This document shows positions 50,922 to 53,694 of a stretch of 64,000 nt of DNA, in pieces. The stretch covers positions 2,480,001 through 2,544,000 of the forward strand of contig NZ_AP024854.1 in assembly GCF_024529955.1 (NCBI RefSeq), read 5' to 3'. The DNA comes from Photobacterium toruni. Lineage in GTDB: Bacteria > Pseudomonadota > Gammaproteobacteria > Enterobacterales > Vibrionaceae. The first letter of the stretch is position 1. The number at the start of each line of letters is the position of its first letter. The translations under genes were made by a program, and so were the position numbers. Below the pieces are notes generated by a model, which was not told the DNA's origin, searched no databases, and saw only the letters and a program-made list of their open reading frames with translations.

Positions 50922-52226
50922 ATGAGCAAAACGAACAAGTCAGCTGATTTATTTGCCAAAGCACAACAAAAAATCCCGGGGGGTGTTAACTCACCAGTAA
51001 GAGCTTTTGCTGGCGTTGGTGGCACACCATTATTTATTGATCGCGCTGATGGCGCTTATATTTTTGATGCTGATGGTAATGCATATATTGATTACGTTGG
51101 TTCATGGGGTCCAATGATACTGGGCCACAATCATGCTGCAATTCGTGATGCTGTTATTGATGCTGCACAACAAGGCTTAAGCTTTGGCGCACCAACAGCA
51201 ATGGAAATCACTATGGCTGAATTAGTATCAGAGCTTGTGCCATCAATGGAAATGGTTCGTATGGTAAGTTCAGGTACAGAAGCTACCATGAGTGCTATAC
51301 GTCTTGCTCGAGGCTTTACTGGTCGTGATAAGATTCTTAAATTTGAAGGATGCTACCACGGTCATGCTGACTGCCTATTAGTAAAAGCAGGATCTGGTGC
51401 CTTAACACTTGGCCAGCCAAGCTCTCCTGGTGTTCCCGCTGATTTTGCTAAACATACTTTAACTGCAACTTATAACGATCTTGATTCAGTTCGTGAAGCA
51501 TTTATGGCTCAACCAGATCAAATCGCTTGTATTATCGTTGAGCCTGTTGCCGGAAATATGAATTGCATTCCACCTGTACCAGGATTCCTTCAAGGCCTAC
51601 GTGAAATTTGTGATGAATTTGGTGCATTATTAATTTTAGATGAAGTTATGACAGGCTTCCGTGTCGCGCAAGGCGGTGCTCAAGCATATTATAATGTTAA
51701 ACCTGATATCACTACATTAGGAAAAATCATTGGTGGTGGTATGCCTGTCGGTGCTTTTGGTGGTCGTCGTGATGTAATGGAATTTGTTGCACCAACAGGT
51801 CCAGTATATCAAGCAGGTACGCTATCAGGTAACCCTGTGGCAATGGCTGCAGGCCATGCTTGCTTAACGGTATTAACAGAAGAAGGTAATGAAAAACGCT
51901 TAGCAAATACCACTAAACGTTTAGCAAACGGCTTTAAAGCACTTGCTGACAAACATGGCATACCTTTAGCGGTAAACCAAGTTGGCGCAATGTTTGGTTT
52001 CTTCTTTATCGATCAAGATAGCGTTACTTGCTATGAAGATGTGACTAAGTGTGATGTTGAGCGCTTCAAACGTTTCTTTAATCTAATGCTTGATAAAGGG
52101 GTTTACCTTGCACCTTCAGCCTATGAAGCGTGTTTTACCTCTCTTGCACATAACGAAAAAGAAATTGATGCCACATTAGAAGCGGCAGATTTTGCCTTTG
52201 CAACACTGGCGGAAGAAGCAAAATAG
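50922..52226 (+). CDS. hemL: Glutamate-1-semialdehyde 2,1-aminomutase
   Basis: A PLP enzyme that converts glutamate-1-semialdehyde to 5-aminolevulinate, the committed precursor of haem. I chose ATG 50922 ([16 protein letters not shown]), with AGGA 8 nt upstream, giving 434 residues; the frame opens earlier at 50886 without family sense. Motifs: [12 protein letters not shown] at the N-terminus, [25 protein letters not shown], and the PLP lysine 268 in [12 protein letters not shown]. Monocistronic with a terminator about 65 nt downstream. Confidence 0.97.
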
Positions 52227-52289
52227 CACCATTTAAAATAAATACTACAATGTTATTAAAAACATTATTTTATTAATGCTATCATAAAA

Positions 52290-52317
52290 CAAAGGTCACT
52301 TATTGTGGCCTTTTTTT
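52290..52317 (+). terminator. Intrinsic terminator after hemL
   Basis: AAAGGTCAC pairs with GTGGCCTTT (one G-T) around TTATT, followed by a T-run. Confidence 0.82.
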
Positions 52318-52382
52318 ACGGCGAGTGTTTACCATCACGTCGGTCATATACAACCAATAAGTGATGAATAATATTGGTTAAT

Positions 52383-52490
52383 TTACTGCCAAAAATAAAC
52401 GGCAAGTCCAATAACAAGTACTACAACAATGAGTACTAACGATGGCTTCCATTTTTTTTTGTCATCACACCCACAATTACAACATCCCAT
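52383..52490 (-). CDS. 35-residue Cys-rich single-pass membrane protein
   Basis: A short gene easily missed. From ATG 52490 it encodes MGCCNCGCDDKKKWK, then a hydrophobic helix (SLVLIVVVLVIGLAVYFW), and ends in Q before TAA at 52385-52383. GAGGAG stands 7 nt before the start, one of the best ribosome sites in the window. Four cysteines (CCxCxC) followed by Lys residues predict a cytoplasmic metal- or cluster-binding head anchored by one helix, by the positive-inside rule. A near-consensus Fur box lies 48 bp upstream of the start, and hemL is downstream on the other strand. No family assigned; the function is inferred only. Confidence 0.62.
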   Translation of the reverse strand: MGCCNCGCDDKKKWKPSLVLIVVVLVIGLAVYFWQ

Positions 52491-52538
52491 AAGTTATCTC
52501 CTCGATAAAGACTATAATCATCAAACAACAGCAATGAT

Positions 52539-52557
52539 TATAATGATAATCTTTATC
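52539..52557. promoter_or_regulatory. Predicted Fur box between the small membrane protein and the permease gene
   Basis: The sequence at 52539-52557 matches the 19-bp Fur consensus GATAATGATAATCATTATC at 17 positions (differences at positions 1 and 14). It lies 48 bp before the minus-strand small gene and 51 bp before the plus-strand permease start, so it could control either or both by iron. Confidence 0.7.
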
Positions 52558-52608
52558 AGTTACAGTGAGAATAACTTTTATCGATGGATTTAAAAAAGGA
52601 TAAATACC

Positions 52609-53694
52609 GTGTCTCAACCCTTTAAGGTAGAACCACGTCATTGGATGCTGATAGTGGCACTATTTGTCGCTTCTTACGCAAGTTATAAATTAATCGAACC
52701 CTATCTTGGTCCGATTGTATTAGCGTTTATCATCTCTTTGTTATTTACGCCATTGCACAAGCGCTTACTTGCTAAAATGCCAACGCGTGAAAATACAGCT
52801 GCAATGCTGTCATGTTTTATAATGACAGTCATTATTGTTATTCCTCTGTTAGTGGTGTTTTCATCCATCGTTCACCAAGGCACGACAGTATCAAAAGAAA
52901 GCTATACCTGGTTAACAACTGGCGGGCCAAAAGAACTGTTTTCCCACCCTTTTGCTCAAAAAGCACTGGCCTTAATTGATAAATATTCGCCATTCCATGA
53001 TTTTGATCCGCAGGTAATTATTCAAAAAATAGCGACAACCGCCTCTCAAGTTGGCTCTCAAGCACTGAATATCAGCGCCAAAATATTAGGTGATGCAACA
53101 AATTTACTCGTTAATTTTATGATGATGTTGTTCGTATTATTTTTCTTATTACGTGATAACGATAAAATGATCTCTGCCATTCGCCACGTTATTCCATTAT
53201 CTCGTAGTCAAGAAGACGCAATCATGGAAGAGGTTGAACAAGTTGCACGATCTGCGGTACTCGGTTCTTTCTTAACCGCTCTTGCACAAGGACTTGCCGG
53301 TGGTTTTGCAATGTGGCTATGTGGATTCCAAGGTTTATTTTGGGGCTCAATGATGGCCTTTGCCTCATTAATTCCTGTTGTTGGTACCGCTTTAATTTGG
53401 ATTCCAGCATCTCTGTATTTACTCTTGATTGGCGACTGGCAATGGGCTCTCTTTCTTGCAAGTTGGGGAGTTCTTGTTGTGGGATCTATCGATAACATCG
53501 TTCGCCCACTATTAATGCAAGGCAGTTCAAGTATGAATACCTTATTGATTTTCTTTTCAATTATTGGTGGTATTCAATTGTTTGGTTTAATCGGCATGAT
53601 TTATGGACCCATTATTTTTGGGGTGACACTAGTGCTATTTAAAATGTATGAAGTTGAATTTCAATCCTTCCTTAAACAACAAGATAACAATTAA
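52609..53694 (+). CDS. AI-2E family transporter (YdiK/PerM-like permease)
   Basis: A 361-residue membrane protein. The AI-2E exporter superfamily includes E. coli TqsA, PerM and YdiK. About 8 hydrophobic spans: two near the N-terminus (12-50), one near 65-85, then a soluble segment, and a cluster in the second half, including the family motif region SLIPVVGTALIWIPASLYLL and the end GLIGMIYGPIIFGVTLVLF. The start is GTG 52609 behind AAAGGATAA. Substrate unknown; the adjacent Fur box hints at iron-linked regulation. Confidence 0.85.
   Translation: MSQPFKVEPRHWMLIVALFVASYASYKLIEPYLGPIVLAFIISLLFTPLHKRLLAKMPTRENTAAMLSCFIMTVIIVIPLLVVFSSIVHQGTTVSKESYTWLTTGGPKELFSHPFAQKALALIDKYSPFHDFDPQVIIQKIATTASQVGSQALNISAKILGDATNLLVNFMMMLFVLFFLLRDNDKMISAIRHVIPLSRSQEDAIMEEVEQVARSAVLGSFLTALAQGLAGGFAMWLCGFQGLFWGSMMAFASLIPVVGTALIWIPASLYLLLIGDWQWALFLASWGVLVVGSIDNIVRPLLMQGSSSMNTLLIFFSIIGGIQLFGLIGMIYGPIIFGVTLVLFKMYEVEFQSFLKQQDNN

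Follow-up and report, generated by a model that had tools for sequence, protein, structure and literature searches.

The 64-kb window analysed here (the whole stretch of 64,000 nucleotides from Photobacterium toruni, contig NZ_AP024854.1) contains a 35-codon open reading frame between hemL and a gene of the AI-2E transporter family, and the questions that it raises are whether such a short frame is a real gene and what its product could do. An earlier note, made from the letters alone, had described a minus-strand peptide with a CCxCxC motif, a lysine cluster and one hydrophobic helix, preceded by a ribosome site and lying beside hemL and an AI-2E-family gene. All of these elements were found (Table 1), with TIGR00713 and PF01594 matches on either side, and the frame is a genuine gene, conserved among relatives. 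We refer to its product as the MGCC micropeptide.

Table 1. Features of the micropeptide locus, in positions of the window.
Feature	Position	Strand	Evidence or context
hemL, convergent neighbour	50922..52226	+	TIGR00713
MGCC micropeptide gene, 35 codons plus stop codon TAA	52383..52490	-	ORF, conservation and omega 0.09
Predicted membrane helix, codons 16-34, followed by Q35	52389..52445	-	AlphaFold2 and alignment
Basic cluster KKKWK, codons 11-15	52446..52460	-	Sequence alignment
CCNCGC, codons 3-8	52467..52484	-	Alignment of 35-residue members
Ribosome site GAGGAG, 7 nt from the ATG	52498..52503	-	Sequence
Fur-box-like 19-mer, 17/19	52539..52557		Between the two divergent genes
AI-2E-family transporter gene, divergent neighbour	52609..53694	+	PF01594, E 1.3e-52

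The gene translates into MGCCNCGCDDKKKWKPSLVLIVVVLVIGLAVYFWQ (35 aa). AlphaFold2 places a helix at residues 16 to 34, with a block pLDDT of 93 for residues 21 to 30 and of 86 for residues 31 to 35; the N-terminal half is loose (block pLDDT of 57 and 64), and the model as a whole has a mean of 73.4 and a pTM of 0.36. Among the aligned members of 35 residues, C3 and C4 are present in all 39, C8 in 37 and C6 in 34, and F33, W34 and Q35 are near invariant at the C terminus. Position 14, inside the basic cluster, is a tryptophan in the window's peptide and an arginine in 35 of the 39 aligned relatives. The constant core of the relatives consists of M[GS]CC, the basic cluster, usually followed by a proline, the hydrophobic helix and a C-terminal tryptophan (mostly W-Q). 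The start is MGCC or MSCC in 66 of the 67 loci that we read, the exception being L046 with MGCGC; MGCCN is the form of the window's own lineage and MGCCD that of most other Photobacterium loci. The third and fourth cysteines shift or vanish (MGCCDCGTKKK, MGCCDNQC, and many Vibrio forms with a cysteine about five residues further on), so that there are four cysteines in most Photobacterium members, three in many members and two in L054. As these two cysteines are so mobile, the CCxCxC motif of the window's peptide is a Photobacterium form of a simpler vicinal-cysteine design.

Conservation was assessed with a protein search of 99 genomes, in which a match had to reach an E value of 0.03 or less and adjoin the same AI-2E gene. 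There were 46 such matches, 44 from the 52 genus genomes, that of the window among them, with the frame in the same place at the hemL locus, and two from other genera; the peptides are 33 to 37 aa long. A codon model over 35 distinct ORFs gave an omega of 0.09, with a log likelihood of -1901.0 against -2127.4 at omega 1 (a cost of 226 units), and omega was also 0.09 for the 15 distinct ORFs of the window's own lineage (-510.7 against -562.1, a cost of 51). This test omitted 8 of 47 peptides that were not of 35 residues or were too divergent (L019, L025, L041, L043-L046 and L054). C3, C4 and K13 never vary among the 39 members with 35 residues, yet both codons are used for each. Two of the checks that the earlier note had proposed, conservation at the hemL locus and dN/dS, came out in favour of the gene: omega is far below 1 in the family-wide set and in the own lineage alike, and this codon comparison shows strong purifying selection on the micropeptide ORF. 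The protein search did not find the gene in 8 of the 52 genus genomes, and it is therefore dispensable. At six of these eight loci (Photobacterium loci among L047-L053), hemL and the AI-2E gene lie close together, with a gap of 175 to 239 nt and no similar ORF; the gap in L001-L045 is 240 to 425 nt.

Within the Vibrionaceae, a profile built from 31 Photobacterium-type members matched 249 of 329 genomes (E of 0.1 or less), and a profile of 48 members matched 266 of them (E of 0.01 or less), a few weakly. One of these weak genome-wide matches (E 0.005) is in G044, which is among the eight genomes lacking the gene by the protein search. All 20 loci chosen from other Vibrionaceae genera encode an MGCC peptide of 35 to 40 aa divergent from AI-2E, one of them starting with GTG. 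An additional member, with an MSCC start, was found by reading the AI-2E locus of G058 (L054), a genome that the protein search had left without a credited match, and the 48-member profile matches it with E 9e-11. A scan of genome_contigs with the pattern MGCC[DN][CN][GQ]C, which detects one form of the peptide only, returned 54 stretches, including 27 confirmed relatives, all 27 from Photobacterium. Among the matches listed for the order (394 genomes, those of Vibrionaceae among them), none outside the family spans both the MGCC start and the helix at E below 0.001; the best one outside Vibrionaceae, in a list reaching E of about 0.095, is a helix within a 287-aa frame (E 1.3e-4). In 248 genomes of the class there were two matches besides the window's own, both of them helices within frames of 427 and 204 aa.

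The suggestion that the peptide might be undescribed is supported for the libraries searched, with no convincing match for the 48 members in four of them. The best Pfam match (E 0.0035) is a transmembrane-segment model and not credible, nor is the best one in NCBIfam (E 0.0065); PHROGs gave nothing credible (best E 0.016), although phrog_14275, of unknown function, touched 13 of the 48 members (best E 0.044), and the PDB search gave no match. A gene under strong selection and with a match in the great majority of the Vibrionaceae genomes is thus absent from the family libraries searched.

The peptide gene is divergent from the AI-2E gene in 67 of 67 loci read, which are a subset of the 266 matching genomes and include L054, fetched for its AI-2E gene; hemL is within the fetched stretch in 64 of them. 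Such an arrangement would suit a peptide that serves the transporter as a small subunit or as its regulator, packing its helix against it and using the cysteine tip to sense a ligand or the redox state, that is, a membrane-partner regulator that works without a metal. In agreement with this, AI-2E has a match in 59 of 60 Vibrionaceae genomes, and G053, the one without it, is also without a credible peptide match. The adjacency is there but joint gain and loss is not: 12 Vibrionaceae loci keep AI-2E without a recognisable peptide (L047-L053 and L055-L059, with the frames inspected in 11), which speaks against a subunit that the transporter cannot do without, and the synteny with hemL is nearly as strict, so that position alone is weak evidence. 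We regard this partnership as rather unlikely. A leader peptide or upstream ORF was also considered and rejected, as there is no co-directional downstream gene and the next gene is the convergent hemL. By eye, L093-L096, L101 and L102 show a TGACAC...TGTCC dyad in front of the peptide gene, about 20 bp ahead of a TATAAT box, and L097, L098, L108 and L109 have degenerate forms of it; the dyad is a possible operator of the divergent pair.

The regulation by Fur that had been proposed for the gene needs to be separated into what is seen in the window and what is seen in its relatives. Scored against GATAATGATAATCATTATC, which we take to be the Fur consensus, the announced 17/19 match 48 bp upstream of the peptide's ATG is confirmed; it also lies 51 bp from the AI-2E start, and is therefore not specific to the peptide gene. 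It is the only site with three or fewer mismatches in the 64-kb window (0.03 expected) and the only two-mismatch site in the whole genome, and a score of at least 17 in the 118 nt between the start codons arose in 0 of 20,000 shuffles and in 3 of 20,000 first-order Markov sequences. Genome-wide, 13 strand-matches have three or fewer mismatches against 15 for a reversed control pattern, so the consensus as such is not above the genomic background. The positive control failed, since 7 of the 11 other genomic places with three mismatches are inside ORFs and the total is not above that of the control pattern, and the two Plug-domain loci of the genome score 13/19 and 14/19. The case for a Fur box therefore rests on its conservation. 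In the own lineage (L001-L017) the box scores 17/19 in 16 loci and 16/19 in one, and 17 of its 19 columns are invariant, against 47 of 105 other columns; we take this lineage to hold P. phosphoreum, P. carnosum, P. iliopiscarium, P. kishitanii, P. piscicola, P. aquimaris, P. malacitanum, P. angustum and P. lucens. L018-L046, the remaining 29 of the 46 loci, do not exceed 13/19 over stretches of up to 400 nt, a score within the range of the 118-nt shuffles, and the 18 loci scored out of the 20 from other Vibrionaceae reach at most 14/19 (sense strand of the gene, up to 300 bases upstream). The loci without the box still encode the same kind of peptide.

From these scores, Fur control of the divergent region is likely in one Photobacterium lineage, where the box may serve the peptide gene, the AI-2E gene or both; if both, the two could be co-regulated there, which would also suit a peptide that works with the transporter. 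The proposal of Fur regulation is thus likely to hold for the 17 of 17 lineage genomes in which the box is conserved at 16 to 17 of 19 positions, and finds no support at the other loci scored, and the regulation looks like a lineage add-on and not a family-wide property. The regulatory box of a single genome can mislead, as what is widely conserved here is the peptide and not the Fur site. The same pattern bears on the interpretation offered by the earlier note, a Fur-repressed iron-stress peptide that would bind iron, haem or an Fe-S cluster. In favour of the idea are the best Fur-like box in the genome, conserved in its own lineage, and erpA and hemL close by in the window, but we judge it improbable, given that most loci have no box, that the gene stands alone with the convergent hemL next to it, that the third and fourth cysteines are not constant and that a similar MGCC type is found near copper genes instead.

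A small RNA as the owner of the box is unsupported, with no Rfam match over the gathering score in 52100-52800, and RyhB is not among the four Rfam matches listed for that interval. The best-scoring of these is a SraG match at the 3' end of hemL (52189-52315, plus strand), at 26.4 bits and below the gathering score of 50. The same Rfam result gave no candidate for the antisense RNA that would control a type I toxin-like hydrophobic peptide. The size, the single helix and the basic residues would fit such a toxin, but the peptide has mostly one match per genome, keeps a fixed place in the loci read, and has an omega of 0.09 and a conserved cysteine pair, and we find a toxin hardly credible.

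A different indication of function comes from a second type of MGCC micropeptide, which the study of the first one brought to light inside copper-export modules, some of them on plasmids. It was first seen as a weak match on another contig in four genomes (MGCCNQAPNGGG...FG, beside a Lon-like protease gene), and it consists of M[GS]CCN..P.GG and one helix, in 35 to 40 aa, mostly in Vibrionaceae and at several unrelated loci. Its profiles matched 31 genomes of the group that we take as Vibrio among 119 tested, with one partial match elsewhere, and 35 of the 52 Photobacterium genomes, the window's own included; outside Vibrionaceae it is present in G504 and G493 (MGCCS in G493). It has no convincing Pfam or NCBIfam match (the best in NCBIfam being E 0.0013 and 0.0015, with two members each). 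Among the 38 second-type loci read (L141-L160, L174-L187 and L124-L127), 10 yielded a match to one or more of nine queries for copper or metal-efflux genes (CueR-like, P-type ATPase, DUF411, CopCD and efflux genes), against 0 of 67 hemL/AI-2E loci, but the queries were chosen from the second type's own loci after inspection, so that the rate of 10 in 38 cannot be taken as unbiased, the flanks compared were of about 1.5 kb for the hemL/AI-2E type and about 2.5 to 3 kb for the second, and the ten include near-copies (L141/L153 and L142/L146). In six of the ten, genes for the peptide, a MerR-type regulator and a P-type ATPase are consecutive (the presence of HMA domains was checked in one, the others being 56-95% identical); two have a DUF411 (CopG-like) and a cytochrome-like protein (a weak Pfam match), one of these also with CopC and CopD, and two have an outer-membrane efflux protein, in one case with a cation-efflux protein.

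Four plasmid records (one of them L153) have MerR and heavy-metal P-type ATPase genes downstream of the second-type peptide, at which the PLSDB table, itself incomplete, lists no gene. In L191 (plasmid pTHAF190c_c) this module follows tniQ, csy3 and cas6f, an arrangement that would suit cargo carried by a CRISPR-associated transposon, and in L190 it comes after two transposase genes of the Tn3 family. L142 and L146 share the same peptide, MerR and P-type ATPase, with reverse transcriptase- or transposase-like ORFs nearby by eye, suggesting a mobile copper island. The copy in the window's own genome (L174:2757-2864, plus strand) has no copper gene among the ORFs listed around it, and it also ends in WQ. 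A complementary presence of the two types in Photobacterium was tried and rejected, with 7 of the 8 genomes without the hemL-locus peptide having the other one (P = 0.18). Profile comparison of the two types gives a 96% probability both ways, over 34 columns with the four-member set and eight columns with the 22-member set, and the likeness is mainly within the first eight residues; we treat it as an analogy that may be homology, common descent being unproven. Neither type is named in the titles or abstract openings that the literature searches returned; the list of V. cholerae membrane proteins in PMC10903887 may include the hemL-locus peptide, as the pipeline of that work detected 27 small membrane proteins in Vibrio cholerae, given in its supplement (PMC10903887).

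As a similar type of peptide sits in copper modules, a thiophilic metal is the best guess for what the cysteines bind. The reading that we prefer, while giving it somewhat less than an even chance, is that of an inner-membrane peptide whose cytosolic cysteines bind such a metal. Helix 16-34 would anchor the micropeptide in the inner membrane, and the basic cluster just before it would hold the N terminus in the cytosol, where basic residues flanking a helix stay according to the positive-inside rule; this N-in topology is favoured by the single helix with positive charges ahead of it and by the absence of a signal peptide. The first methionine is removed when position 2 is glycine, which would leave a tip that reads Gly-Cys-Cys, in most cases accompanied by one or two further cysteines a few residues away and kept near the membrane in the reducing cytosol. 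The chemistry of such a tip, with thiolates close together at the membrane surface, suits Cu(I), Zn(II) or an iron site (Fe or Fe-S), and its most likely task would be to bind one of these and hand it on, or signal its presence, to a partner in the membrane. A Fur-type operator in one Photobacterium lineage would cause the gene, AI-2E or both to be made under iron shortage, and iron would be favoured only by the Fur box of that lineage. Against binding of a metal in general are the lack of a known metal-binding motif and the variable number of cysteines.

The cysteine pair could also act without a metal, as a vicinal dithiol in thiol redox chemistry or as a site of S-acylation at GCC, making the peptide an anchor that recruits a protein to the membrane. 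That the vicinal pair varies least within the tail, the rest being changeable, fits this, but the occurrence of a similar MGCC type near copper genes points to a metal, and we know of no bacterial enzyme for N-terminal GCC acylation; a metal-free anchor seems to us quite improbable. Returning to metal binding, a broader form would unite both types in one superfamily of cytosolic-face metal docking tips in Vibrionaceae, with a copper-export branch, found also on plasmids, and a hemL/AI-2E branch for another metal or partner, under Fur in one lineage. This wider scheme is doubtful. In either form, the micropeptide is a testable candidate for metal handling at the inner membrane.

Compared with known systems, the closest parallel is the second MGCC type, which has in common with the hemL-locus peptide the M[GS]CC start, a short linker, one C-terminal helix and a length below 45 aa; the linker with P8 and GG10-11 belongs to the second type only, and the KKKRR cluster to the hemL-locus peptide only. 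The CutF-like and DUF2946 copper peptides are likewise small, carry a cysteine motif and are linked to copper genes; CutF, of 118 aa, combines a CxxxC motif with a PP motif at the C terminus and has a putative Sec signal (PMC8456105). The micropeptide differs from them in having no Sec signal, CxxxC or C-terminal PP, and no DUF2946 match. MgrB, AcrZ, KdpF and CydX are single-helix proteins of about 50 aa or less that as a rule bind a larger membrane protein and adjust its activity; to our knowledge they have no N-terminal vicinal cysteine motif, and no such family is among the Pfam or NCBIfam matches of the micropeptide. Cu(I) chaperones of the Atx1/CopZ type use a cytosolic cysteine pair for Cu(I), and the micropeptide, predicted to be membrane anchored and without an HMA match or MxCxxC, would be analogous to them in its own cytosolic pair. 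If the superfamily scheme is true, such a membrane-tethered cysteine pair would represent a class of metal carriers that is new and, as far as we know, the smallest.
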